From positions 1-28,747 of IMG/VR virus record IMGVR_UViG_3300036668_000095: 28,747 nt of DNA, one strand, 5' to 3'. Origin of the DNA: a virus. Below are positions 746 to 11,472 of the stretch, in pieces. The notes under the pieces are model-generated. The model had not been told where the DNA came from. It ran no database searches and worked only from the letters and a program-made list of their open reading frames with translations. Positions within the stretch are counted from its first letter, which is position 1. Each line of letters starts with the position of its first letter. The translations under genes were made by a program, and so were the position numbers.

Positions 746-997
746 ATGTCGCAAGAAATCTACAACATAGTTCTCGGTCTAGCAGGTACACTTGGCGGTT
801 GGTGGCTAAAAGTGATGTGGGAATCGCTAAAAGAATTGCAAGCTGCTGACAAAGATTTAGTCGAAAAAGTCAGCCGTATTGAAATTTTAGTTGCAGGCAA
901 TTATGTCAAGCGCGAAGAATTTGACCGAGTAGTCGAACGTCTTTTTGTCAAACTAGATAATATCGAGATTAAAATTGACGCTAAGGCTGACAAATGA
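746..997 (+). CDS. Small membrane protein with coiled-coil tail (lysis cassette)
   Basis: The 83-residue protein has one N-terminal hydrophobic helix (about residues 6-24, with a GGWW patch) followed by a highly charged amphipathic helix to the C terminus. This resembles the small one-TM proteins that precede holins in many proteobacterial phages, similar in layout to haemolysin XhlA-type lysis accessories. Its stop overlaps the start of the holin-like gene (ATGA). A role as holin partner or anti-holin is inferred from position. Confidence 0.6.
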   Translation: MSQEIYNIVLGLAGTLGGWWLKVMWESLKELQAADKDLVEKVSRIEILVAGNYVKREEFDRVVERLFVKLDNIEIKIDAKADK

Positions 998-4899: not shown

Positions 4900-5297
4900 A
4901 ATTGCACCTGATAATTTGTACGAACCACTTTATACACGATGGCGTCTTGTGCTTCTGTCAATCTTAGTATTTTTTTCCCGCCGTCTTTGTAAACTTTGGT
5001 TGAAACCGCATCAGTTAAAAACCAGCCAGTTGGTTTACGCGTCAAAGTAACGCGCGTACCGTCGCGAGAATATTTGTAAGCATTCGGCACTGATGCGCTA
5101 CTAGTCGCATCAAATATCGCGCCAGAAAAATGCTTTTTTGCGCTGAGTAGCTCTGTCAATCTGCTTTCAGCATCTACCGTCAAATTTTCGATTTGATCAA
5201 AGCGCACATAAGTATGCGCGGTAGAGCGTAAATTGATTTCACGCAAAACTGCTTCGACTTTTTGCGAGTTTGCTTGTGTGATTTTGATTTCTTTCAT
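4896..5297 (-). CDS. Hypothetical protein, first gene of a leftward sub-operon
   Basis: This 133-residue protein starts MKEIKITQANSQKVEAVLRE after the strong ribosome site CGGAGAAAC. It looks like an alpha/beta protein; the segment RVTLTRKPTGWFLTD resembles part of a small nucleic-acid-binding fold, but no family is recognised. It is preceded by a 95-base gap with promoter- and operator-like sequence, so it probably heads a separately transcribed group that includes the alpha-CTD-like and TraR-like genes. Confidence 0.6.
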   Translation of the reverse strand: MKEIKITQANSQKVEAVLREINLRSTAHTYVRFDQIENLTVDAESRLTELLSAKKHFSGAIFDATSSASVPNAYKYSRDGTRVTLTRKPTGWFLTDAVSTKVYKDGGKKILRLTEAQDAIVYKVVRTNYQVQL

Positions 5298-6355: not shown

Positions 6356-6539
6356 TTTTCTGCTCCGTGTATTCTTTATAAAGTGTTGCTCGGTCAATGC
6401 GTGTCGCGTGTTCTAAAAAGTCAAACATTCTTGCGCCTTGTGCTTTGTTTGGGTACGCAGACTTAACTAGTCGGTAGCGACAACCTACACACTTATTGTT
6501 GTAGGTTGAACCGCTAAAGTTACATTTGTTGCATTGCAT
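6330..6539 (-). CDS. Small zinc-ribbon protein
   Basis: This 69-residue protein begins MQCNKCNFSGSTYNNKCVGC, a compact four-cysteine zinc ribbon (C3, C6, C17, C20), followed by a helical basic region. The start is the ATG at 6539, which overlaps the stop of the DUF736-like gene (TGATG). The 3' end overlaps the next gene by 26 bases. Zinc ribbons in such operons usually bind nucleic acid; the specific role is unknown. Confidence 0.65.
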   Translation of the reverse strand: MQCNKCNFSGSTYNNKCVGCRYRLVKSAYPNKAQGARMFDFLEHATRIDRATLYKEYTEQKNESDCNIL

Positions 6540-6784
6540 CAAAAAGGTAAATCTGAACCTATATCAGCTAATTCTTGTGGCTTTGCTGGTTGCACCTTAA
6601 CCTTTGGGACTTGTACGGAGCCGGAGATAAACTTGCCACCGTCATCCTTTCTAGTTTTGATCCAGCCCGACAGTTCATAATCCTTGCCGTCAATATTGAC
6701 AGTGCCTCTGTAGTCGGGTCGTTTTTCATTGTCACCCTTGTCATTCTTTGAAATAATGAAAGTGTTGGTGTTGTCATAAGCCAT
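6539..6784 (-). CDS. DUF736-like protein with SSB-type acidic tip
   Basis: An 81-residue beta-rich protein. Residues 3-58 (NTNTFIISKNDKGDNEKRPDYRG through GSV) match the DUF736-type pattern of a short OB-like single domain. The C terminus IGSDLPF closely resembles the acidic tip of single-stranded DNA-binding proteins, which recruits replication and recombination partners. It sits between the YqaJ exonuclease and nuclease genes and has a good AAGGAAG ribosome site. A role as phage ssDNA-binding protein is a reasonable inference. Confidence 0.65.
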   Translation of the reverse strand: MAYDNTNTFIISKNDKGDNEKRPDYRGTVNIDGKDYELSGWIKTRKDDGGKFISGSVQVPKVKVQPAKPQELADIGSDLPF

Positions 6785-7410: not shown

Positions 7411-7955
7411 TCTTTATTCTCAATTTGATTTTTTCTAAAGTCGTTAATCATAGCAACAGCTTCAGCCCGAATTAAATTGCGTTCTGTTTCTGTCAATGTC
7501 GTTCTAAATTCTTTAACTTTGTTTTCAGTATCCATGCCTGACAACAATGCTAACAACTGAGGCTTACCTCGTGGCTCAGGTTCTGCTACAGGCTCAGAGT
7601 GTGGCAAGTCTTCACCCGCATAAATATACAAACCGAGACCGTGACACGCGATAGCTTTGACCAGGCAACGCATCATGTTTTTGTTGACCTGAAACGAATC
7701 TGGGTTTTTGATTGCCTGGTTGCGATTATCCATGACTGGTAGGTGCATGGTTATAGGCTTTTCAAATGCGGTAACGGTGCATGACACCATCATTGATTCA
7801 CCAAACATTTGCGGTTCGTGAAACACCCAGTTGGCAGTTTGGTCTTGACGCATAAGTTGGTCAACAGCGTGTGCCCAAGAAAGGTAAGATAAATTATTTT
7901 TTTTCTCAATGTGCTTAGACACATCAATTTTTGCAAGTTGTTCAAAGTGGTTCAT
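7407..7955 (-). CDS. Sak3-type single-strand annealing protein (DUF1071)
   Basis: This 182-residue protein carries the DUF1071/Sak3 core: NNLSYLSWAHAVDQLMRQD near the N terminus, a central beta region (VSCTVTAFEKPITMHLPVMD), then VNKNMMRCLVKAIACHGLG and LYIYAGEDLP. This family anneals complementary single strands and pairs with YqaJ exonucleases, exactly as arranged here. The C-terminal 60 residues are a variable helical region. The ribosome site is GGAGAAAC, matching several other leftward genes. Confidence 0.88.
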   Translation of the reverse strand: MNHFEQLAKIDVSKHIEKKNNLSYLSWAHAVDQLMRQDQTANWVFHEPQMFGESMMVSCTVTAFEKPITMHLPVMDNRNQAIKNPDSFQVNKNMMRCLVKAIACHGLGLYIYAGEDLPHSEPVAEPEPRGKPQLLALLSGMDTENKVKEFRTTLTETERNLIRAEAVAMINDFRKNQIENKE

Positions 7956-10544: not shown

Positions 10545-10571
10545 GCACAAGCTATAAATTTTAGCTATAAT
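10543..10571 (+). promoter_or_regulatory. Rightward sigma-70-type promoter
   Basis: TTGCAC at 10543-10548 and a consensus TATAAT at 10566-10571 are separated by exactly 17 bases. The predicted transcription start is about 10578. Transcription from here would run straight into the hairpin at 10595-10623. Confidence 0.65.
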
Positions 10572-10577
10572 TGGGTT

Positions 10578-10631
10578 GGGTTTCTCCGCCCTGTGGCTCG
10601 CAAGTGAATATTCCTTGCGAGTCTTTTTTTT
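10578..10631 (+). ncRNA. Candidate short RNA with anti-Shine-Dalgarno loop
   Basis: From the predicted start near 10578 to the T tract at 10624-10631 the RNA would be about 54 bases. It would have a 5' hairpin GGG-UUUCUCCG-CCC, a short linker and a 10-bp terminator stem. The 8-base loop is fully complementary to CGGAGAAA, the ribosome-binding sequence of several leftward genes (before 5297, 8530, 10196 and 10441). The structure is read from sequence; expression and pairing are inference. Confidence 0.5.
10595..10631 (+). terminator. Rho-independent terminator 1
   Basis: A 10-bp stem (10595-10604 with 10614-10623, one G-U pair) encloses a 9-base loop and is followed by eight T residues at 10624-10631. 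It lies only about 17 bases downstream of the predicted start of the rightward promoter, so it acts as an attenuator or defines a very short RNA. Confidence 0.85.
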
Positions 10632-10641
10632 AGTGTATAAT
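10615..10641 (+). promoter_or_regulatory. Second rightward promoter
   Basis: TATAAT at 10636-10641 is a consensus -10. The best -35 is TTGCGA at 10615-10620, inside the stem of terminator 1, with a 15-base spacer that is shorter than ideal. The predicted start, about 10648, falls just before the structured RNA. Confidence 0.5.
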
Positions 10642-10647
10642 TACGTT

Positions 10648-10754
10648 AACCCTTGGCAGGGAAATTCAGCAAGACTTAGACGAGATTCTGCTGGTGCTGA
10701 CCAGTCTGCCAACACCTTTAAAAAGGTGAGAATCTCGCCTAAGTCTTTTTTTTT
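10648..10754 (+). ncRNA. Candidate structured RNA with nested pseudoknot
   Basis: The segment forms a long closing stem: 10671-10679 with 10739-10747 (9 bp), then a single A-C mismatch, then 10681-10689 with 10729-10737 (9 bp). Inside are a 5-bp hairpin (10691-10704, loop GCTG) and a 6-bp hairpin (10713-10728, loop TAAA). Between them CTGCCAA at 10706-10712 is perfectly complementary to TTGGCAG at 10653-10659, outside the stem, giving a 7-bp pseudoknot. A nine-T tract (10746-10754) ends it. It lies directly upstream of the replication operon. I do not recognise it as a known RNA class. Confidence 0.6.
10671..10754 (+). terminator. Rho-independent terminator 2 (3' stem of the structured RNA)
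   Basis: The 18-bp interrupted closing stem of the structured RNA is followed immediately by nine T residues. The start codon of the first replication gene comes 11 bases after the T tract. No further promoter is visible between them, so replication gene expression appears to require readthrough. Confidence 0.75.
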
Positions 10755-10764
10755 GGACTTATAT

Positions 10765-11472
10765 ATGCACTACTATCAATTTAATATTGGTGACTATCAA
10801 ACCCACACAAATCATTTGACTGAACTCGAAGATTTAGCTTACAGACGAATGATAGATTGGTGTTATTTGCACGAAAAACCGTTGCCAAATGATGTTGATG
10901 AAATAGCTAGATTAATTCGTATGCGAACGCATTGCGATTGCATTGCGAACGTTTTGCGAGAGTTCTTTTATTTGACAAATGATGGTTATATGTCTGAACG
11001 CGTCACACATGAGTTAGAACAAATTTATAGCAAAAGTGATAAGGCAAGGTTTAGCGCAAACAAAAGATGGAATAAAATCAAAGGTTTAGATAAAGATGCG
11101 AACGCAATGCGAACGCATAGCGAAGGCAATGCTACACATAACACATTACCTAATAACACAATACCTAATATAAAAGATAAAAAAACAGGTGACACATTCC
11201 AAAGACCTGAGAAAATAGATAATGAATTGTGGTCTGAATTTAATAAGATTTGCAAAGTAAAAAACAAACCAATAGGAAACCGTGTTTGGAAGAAAATGCT
11301 TGATGAAGCAAATCTTGCGGGCTGGTCAATTGATCAAGTACTTGAGTATTGTTGCGAAAAGGGTTACGCAAGGTTTGAAGCAGAATGGCTAAAACAACCA
11401 AACAATTCATTTGGAAACAAACAAGCGCAATCTGATACTAAATACTTTTCTGACTTAATGGTGGGCACATGA
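10765..11472 (+). CDS. DUF1376/DnaT-like replication protein (helicase loader or initiator)
   Basis: The 235-residue protein starts MHYYQFNIGDYQTHTNHL, the hallmark of DUF1376 (YdaU-type) proteins. The family region runs to about residue 100. A low-complexity linker follows, then a C-terminal domain (about 150-220; WSEFNKICKVKNKPIG...WSIDQVLEYCCEKGYARFEAEWL) like the DnaT/loader-type domains of phage replisome organisers. The frame is open upstream to 10576, but that part crosses the terminators and is not credible. Only GGA serves as ribosome site. The gene carries two clusters of 11-bp iterons and overlaps the next gene by ATGA. Confidence 0.85.
   Translation: MHYYQFNIGDYQTHTNHLTELEDLAYRRMIDWCYLHEKPLPNDVDEIARLIRMRTHCDCIANVLREFFYLTNDGYMSERVTHELEQIYSKSDKARFSANKRWNKIKGLDKDANAMRTHSEGNATHNTLPNNTIPNIKDKKTGDTFQRPEKIDNELWSEFNKICKVKNKPIGNRVWKKMLDEANLAGWSIDQVLEYCCEKGYARFEAEWLKQPNNSFGNKQAQSDTKYFSDLMVGT
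10922..11190. other. Putative replication origin: 11-bp iterons and AT-rich stretch
   Basis: Cluster one: TGCGA-type repeats start at 10922, 10933, 10944 and 10955, exactly 11 bases apart. Cluster two: repeats start at 11097, 11108 and 11119, again 11 bases apart. The best units read TGCGAACGCAT, with dyad symmetry TGCG-AA-CGCA. Because 11 is not a multiple of 3 the repetition is not caused by the protein sequence. An AT-rich stretch, about 11131-11190, follows, containing TACCTAATA twice (11147 and 11162). The layout parallels lambda ori inside gene O. Confidence 0.65.

Follow-up and report, generated by a model that had tools for sequence, protein, structure and literature searches.

The leader and the genes around it

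The window, by which we mean the whole stretch of DNA that was analysed, is a 28,747-base virus record (IMG/VR IMGVR_UViG_3300036668_000095). The left arm, on the minus strand, encodes recombination proteins, a RecE-like exonuclease and a Sak-like annealing protein, and the right arm, on the plus strand from position 10765, carries genes for a DUF1376/primosomal protein, a DnaB-like helicase, HNH endonucleases, terminase, portal, capsid and tail. A leader RNA of roughly 105 bases (10650-10754, plus strand), which ends in a transcription stop signal, occupies the divergent gap between the two arms, immediately 5' of position 10765. The minimum free energy of the segment 10640-10764 was -42.2 kcal/mol (z -4.4), a value equalled by none of 200 shuffled sequences. 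A first-pass annotation of this DNA had proposed a compact leader RNA that lies close to its promoter and carries a terminator, and this proposal was borne out. The features, all on the plus strand, are as follows.

10636-10641, plus strand: -10 box TATAAT, read from the sequence, with a predicted transcript start at about 10648-10650
10650-10661, plus strand: P0 hairpin CCC-TTGGCA-GGG, 3 bp (10650-52/10659-61), which covaries
10653-10659, plus strand: P1 5' strand TTGGCAG, the exact complement of 10706-10712
10666-10671, plus strand: K 5' strand TCAGCA, which directly abuts P2 and pairs with the P3 loop
10672-10688, plus strand: P2 5' strand of the terminator closing stem, with A10680 unpaired, identified by covariation
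10691-10704, plus strand: P3 hairpin CTGG-TGCTGA-CCAG, the columns of which covary
10706-10712, plus strand: P1 3' strand CTGCCAA, identified by sequence and covariation
10713-10728, plus strand: P4 hairpin CACCTT-TAAA-AAGGTG, variable in sequence, loop and length
10730-10746, plus strand: P2 3' strand, identified by covariation
10746-10754, plus strand: U-tract of the intrinsic terminator, nine T, read from the sequence and kept also in the relatives found through proteins
10765-11472, plus strand: first operon gene, DUF1376/primosomal-type, 235 aa (Pfam PF07120, 1.1e-22; PHROG primosomal protein, 1.4e-33)

The P2 closing stem, AAGACTTAG-A-CGAGATTCT paired with AGAATCTCG-C-CTAAGTCTT, has 9+9 bp and one A/C mismatch. 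All of the pairings claimed in the first-pass annotation, the closing stem, both internal hairpins and the 7-bp TTGGCAG/CTGCCAA pseudoknot, could be read from the sequence, as could the leader's own TATAAT; the helices named there are real, but P0 and K had been missed. The nine T residues were also correctly placed before the gene, except that the distance from the end of the U-tract to the ATG at 10765 is 10 nt rather than 11.

The helices follow one another in the order P0, a variable linker, K 5', P2 5' (with no gap), 0-3 nt, P3 (with a loop that is usually 6 nt), 0-2 nt, P1 3', the P4 hairpin, 0-2 nt, P2 3' and the U-tract. TTGGCA is a 6-nt hairpin loop because P0 (CCC/GGG) closes it, and the whole of this loop serves as the P1 5' strand. 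Similarly, the entire P3 loop (TGCTGA, 10695-10700) pairs with TCAGCA (10666-10671) to form the 6 bp of K. The layout is thus reciprocal; the P0 loop and the strand after P3 form P1, and the P3 loop and the strand after P0 form K. P1 and K are mutually nested and both cross P2, so that the pairs could belong to a single knotted fold or be divided between two alternatives. The earlier description of a nested pseudoknot was right in that the crossing pairs are real, but the single simultaneous fold that it implied is only one possibility, and P1 and K may instead be alternatives to P2.

A second promoter-terminator unit lies just 5' of the leader (10566-10631, plus strand), with a TATAAT at 10566-10571 and a terminator at 10598-10630. 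The loop of its first hairpin contains TTTCTCCG, which is complementary to CGGAGAAA, the Shine-Dalgarno region of the left-arm minus-strand genes that start at 5297, 8530, 10196 and 10441, with a near match at 7955. There are 6 copies of TTTCTCCG in the window where 0.53 would be expected, and none of 100 shuffles had as many. In the counterpart of this unit in L001, a viral locus that also has the leader, the loop is kept (GGTTTCTCCGACC) and one stem pair is changed. The short RNA (10574-10631) is a possible antisense small RNA directed against several genes of the recombination arm.

Relatives and covariation

The DUF1376 gene, used as a protein query, led to 80 viral loci, of which a few have the same leader (L001, L026/L027 and L052), most carrying another one. 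Further relatives were obtained with the DNA pattern TTGGCAG ... CTGCCA ... CTTTTTT, and 17 relatives from this stage were used to build a covariance model, R1, that served as a search tool and the E-values of which are rough. When R1 was applied to loci fetched solely via proteins (the DUF1376 protein of L103 and the gene following in L052), many new leaders were found, with scores of 61-108 bits, among them P1 variants that were beyond the reach of the pattern (TTGGCGG/CCGCCAA, TTGGTCG/CGACCAA and TTGGCGA/TCGCCAG). Patterns for two P1 variants then added many contigs, nearly all of which were confirmed by R1. Since the patterns enforce the U-tract and P1, these two features are represented without bias in the set obtained through proteins.

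The collection comprised at least 161 matches and at least 129 distinct cores of about 101-119 nt, of which 128 were usable once a chimeric copy had been removed. That copy (L235:1932-2044), in which P1 is broken, seems to have been joined from two different ones; it was left out of the helix and folding tests and included in the A2 covariation and placement counts. Two weak matches with a longer or altered P2, L105 2554-2676 (26 bits) and L129 5331-5437 (36 bits), probably represent distant members of the class and were excluded from the statistics. L105 is a 109-kb phage contig, in which the match precedes a prim-pol gene and seems to have no P4. L126, L127, L128 and several pattern matches within genes were rejected as chance occurrences without P2, and the pattern matches in genome contigs were likewise due to chance.

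The leaders came from viral contigs, mostly metagenomic, from one complete phage record, MW202520.1, which was reached by the protein route, and from one bacterial assembly. A search with R1 of 399 bacterial genomes, belonging to the order of the genome of the Curvibacter MAG locus (G001), gave a single real copy (L377, 56 bits), immediately 5' of a DUF1376-like gene. Nucleotide similarity searches among cultured phages gave no match to the leader itself, and R1 detected no leader in Limnohabitans phage DC33, which was found by the protein route. The latter record (PQ492659.1, L376) is filed as Inoviridae despite its 39 kb, and its taxonomy line seems doubtful.

Both alignments of the relatives were made with the structure of the model as a guide, a procedure that gives an advantage to P0 and P2 and not to P1 or K (absent from the model): in A2 (33 distinct sequences; P0, P1 and P2), 96.2% of the cells were paired, 22 of the 26 pairs had changed on both sides and the covariation score was 0.576, compared with 0.187 when shuffled and 0.04-0.11 with slid partners, while in A3 (83 further distinct rows, 2 antisense), 96.1% were paired and the score was 0.690, compared with 0.202 when shuffled. 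P2 had two-sided changes in 17 of 17 aligned pairs in both alignments. P0 occurred as CCC/GGG, CGC/GCG, GCC/GGC, CAC/GTG, TGC/GCA, TCC/GGA, ACC/GGT and CCT/AGG. In addition to the three P1 variants given above and TTGGCAG/CTGCCAA, the second copy in L432 had a P1 that was wholly replaced (CTGCAA/TTGCAG) with the pairing intact. For K, 74 distinct pairs had a mean of 5.7 contiguous pairs, compared with 3.9 for swapped partners, a difference reached in 0 of 3000 permutations, and in 0 of 20000 for the first set. The P3 columns also covaried, and the P4 hairpin was kept with a varied sequence. No covarying helices beyond P0, P1, K, P2, P3 and P4 were found. A helix CCUUG/CAAGG at the 5' end was considered and rejected; it is frequent through conservation and fails in many members. 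The first-pass annotation had proposed a covariance search with Infernal across relatives as a check of the pairing, and had named stem-breaking differences among them as the outcome that would speak against it; the pairing passed the search, and compensatory changes preserve it.

The class also appears to be new, as the same annotation had supposed. No Rfam 15 family matched the window above its gathering cut-off, the int-alpA RNA included, permissive thresholds produced only sub-threshold chance matches to the leader, and no family matched the leader in nine loci that carry relatives. A description of this RNA was not found in the literature, in which subscription papers were thinly covered, so that an earlier one is possible. 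Judged by sequence and pairing, the leader appears to be an undescribed class of structured RNA, of a functional kind that is known, located before phage replication genes.

The order P1 5', P2 5', P3, P1 3', P4, P2 3' is formally that of the HDV-like ribozymes, and a self-cleaving ribozyme of this type, which cuts 5' of P1, could trim the 5' end. The topology had been recognized in the first-pass annotation, and both the order and the covariation of the pairings stand, but the likeness is a formal one. J4/2 is 0-2 nt (a single A in the window) and has no conserved cytosine, there is neither a P1.1 nor a catalytic core, the leader has the additional helix K and a terminator as its 3' end, and the Rfam HDV models were unmatched at any threshold tried. 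A ribozyme is, in our estimation, extremely improbable.

Placement and downstream genes

A -10 box with at least 4 of 6 matches to TATAAT was present in 119 of the 127 leaders scored, and in 112 of the 127 its end was 7-10 nt (most commonly 8) before the first base of P0, a spacing that would place the start of the RNA at P0. An ORF followed 127 of the 129 leaders, with its start codon 8-14 nt past the modelled core in 111 of 127. Promoter, leader, intrinsic terminator and gene, the combination expected of an attenuator, thus fall within one predicted transcript. The nearly constant order of -10 box, RNA, U-tract and start codon argues for a cis-acting operon leader, and points to a cassette unlike a free small-RNA gene.

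The first genes behind the leaders belong to 27 unrelated families (single linkage), which include DUF1376 and linked replication proteins, HTH_36, SNF2-methylase, HNH, GIY-YIG-like, T5orf172, Rha and proteins of unknown function. This diversity argues for the control of an operon, not of one gene. Several contigs (L235, L394, L432 and L406) have two copies of the leader, each with its own gene block.

Another role suggested at the outset was that of an abundant small RNA. The terminated RNA of about 105 nt would then be the product, a stable trans-acting RNA, and the operon would depend on leaky read-through. The leader does have its own promoter, its own terminator and a very stable fold, and the adjoining upstream RNA (10574-10631) resembles a trans-acting antisense RNA. 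However, nearly all of its bases lie in covarying helices, so that there is no conserved single-stranded seed, and the start codon that almost always follows the U-tract is unexpected for a free RNA gene. As a main role this was not upheld, and we consider it quite improbable.

Several other observations were made in the course of comparing the loci. The leader is often followed first by an HNH, GIY-YIG-like or T5orf172 gene (L386, L452, L457, L343, L470 and L406), and L406 has a second leader ahead of its replication gene, a pattern that may reflect capture or copying of the leader by mobile endonuclease genes. In L117, L334, L336, L338 and L372, an inverted repeat like CACCGGAAAGACGGTG, possibly an operator, lies upstream of the leader between the -35 and -10 boxes. 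L001 has a series of RNAs before one operon, a terminator-ended RNA (855-940, plus strand) with its own TATAAT, a crossing helix TGTGGAAGGC/GCCTTCCACA and a stem ACCGTTTTAATCTG/CAGATTAAAGCGGT, then a Betaproteobacteria-1 RNA (RF02932, 103 bits, 955-1071) and then the leader. In MW202520.1, a deposited hypothetical protein (6498-6716) overlaps the leader (6535-6651, equivalent to L372 2893-3009) and is probably spurious; the leader model allows annotation in such places, where genes have been miscalled.

Folding order, mechanism and comparison with known systems

The folding programs used represent no pseudoknots, so that a choice between P1 and P2 is partly built into the following results. 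When the nascent RNA was truncated where P1 ends, the best fold contained P1 in 124 of 128 leaders and also K in 79. In the window, the nascent fold with P1 had -20.4 kcal/mol compared with -7.6 kcal/mol for P0 and P3. The full-length fold contained P2 in 127 of the 128 leaders, and the change-over from P1 to P2 was predicted at a transcript end 0-12 nt before the U-tract. RNA polymerase covers roughly the last dozen bases of the transcript, and consequently the decision would fall at the U-tract itself.

The reading that we favour, with slightly better than even confidence, is that the leader is a cis-acting transcription attenuator, in which an antiterminator (P1-K) competes with a terminator (P2-P3-P4). 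Attenuation was one of the three functions suggested in the first-pass annotation and is the one that was supported. We infer a competition of folds, a regulated read-through and a sensor, which could be polymerase speed or a trans factor of the phage or host. A sigma70-type promoter would start the RNA at P0, and the nascent RNA would first form the long P1+K hairpin, with the P2 5' strand held in a closed loop. Once the 3' strand of P2 becomes available, at the U-tract or shortly before it, the RNA could rearrange to P0+P3+P4+P2, the intrinsic terminator, and transcription would stop 10 nt short of the first gene. The polymerase would instead continue into the replication operon if P1-K were to hold. 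The loops of P0 and P3 supply strands of P1 and K, so that these helices could form again as pseudoknots once transcription has terminated and lock the RNA.

Two considerations bear on whether the folds exclude one another: 1) with its 5' strand in a loop and its 3' strand attached to the polymerase, there would hardly be a way for the 18-bp P2 to form while P1-K stayed closed, which favours the attenuator, and 2) the lengths of the P0 and P3 loops exactly match the pairing strands, a fit that agrees with a simultaneous kissing fold no less than with an exclusive switch. P1 and K covary, nest and cross P2, and their coexistence with P2 as pseudoknots is also conceivable.

A simultaneous double pseudoknot could serve as a recognition site, at which a bound protein of the phage or host, nut/Q-like or autoregulatory, alters termination. 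All of the helices are compatible in the knotted fold, in which the 6-nt loops are fully paired, the P1 core TTGG/CCA is nearly invariant, and the two copies in some phages would suit a regulon. Against this, the 27 first-gene families offer no common first gene as a candidate factor, no gene for such a factor was recognized, and the sequences of K and P2 vary almost without limit. On balance, a protein-binding site is not a likely explanation.

Antitermination of the HK022 put type, the remaining function proposed earlier, would require that the 5' double-kiss domain (P0, K, P3 and P1), on emerging from the exit channel, bind RNA polymerase, which would then pass the leader's own terminator and any that follow without a protein. 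In put itself, the suppression of downstream terminators depends on the beta' zinc-binding domain. The leader lies at the promoter of an early/replication operon, as does putL, its compact fold is complete before the terminator is made, and several contigs contain a pair of copies, each at a separate gene block, much like the putL and putR of HK022 (PMC9378689). However, put is an RNA of about 70 nt with two stem-loops and neither a terminator of its own nor a conserved closing terminator helix (PMC9378689), whereas the terminator helix P2 is the most extensive conserved helix of the leader. Moreover, a search of the plus strand between 10.5 kb and the window end gave only two strong intrinsic terminators, that of the leader and that of the short upstream transcript (10624), with no others in the 18 kb downstream of the leader within the window. 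Specific support for this mode of action was not obtained, and we think it unlikely.

The leader might be a widespread, RNA-only phage switch, an attenuator or antiterminator built of two hairpins with 6-nt loops, each loop pairing with the strand that follows the other hairpin, a proposal that we put forward tentatively. With the same reserve, co-transcriptional folding alone would perhaps gate the replication operon, free of protein and ligand, as a promoter-leader-terminator cassette placed before unrelated genes. More than 100 distinct examples and the strong covariation mean that point mutations and their compensations would give a clean test of the mechanism.

The leader can be compared with several known systems. 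A ligand-binding riboswitch was considered and rejected; the conserved columns lie in helices, the junctions vary or measure 0-2 nt, and the aligned relatives share no conserved unpaired nucleotides that would indicate a ligand site. The int-alpA RNA (RF02996) occupies the same slot directly before DUF1376 in sister phages and was the alternative leader in 11 of 11 DUF1376 loci sampled, as well as in L045 and L074, but it has its own sequence and pairing, and its model was unmatched by the RNA of the window and its relatives. The int-alpA leaders (L045 2909-2973, L053 2908-2976, L057, L035, L022, L008 and others) scored 27-38 bits, mostly below the gathering score, and by this sequence measure the Rfam cut-off understates the breadth of the int-alpA family.

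In type III toxin-antitoxin systems, a promoter, a pseudoknot RNA (ToxI) and a terminator precede a gene that is expressed by read-through. The leader likewise has a promoter, a pseudoknot-type RNA and a terminator before a gene, but it has no tandem repeats, and the downstream proteins are replication, HNH or unknown proteins and, in the families tested, not ToxN-like. Attenuators share with the leader the series of promoter, leader, intrinsic terminator and start codon, and the crossing helices are mutually exclusive if unknotted. It differs from them in that no leader peptide was found, in having no tRNA or ligand site, in the near absence of conserved unpaired bases and in the first genes, which are unrelated to one another.

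Like putL and putR of HK022, the leader is a phage RNA beside the promoter of an early operon that would act on termination. It differs from put in having five to six covarying helices, in two of which (P1 and K) a loop pairs with a strand, and a terminator as an integral part. It may function like put though structurally distinct. If switching by folding alone is true, the leader would join the very few RNAs, HK022 put among them, that steer RNA polymerase without protein.
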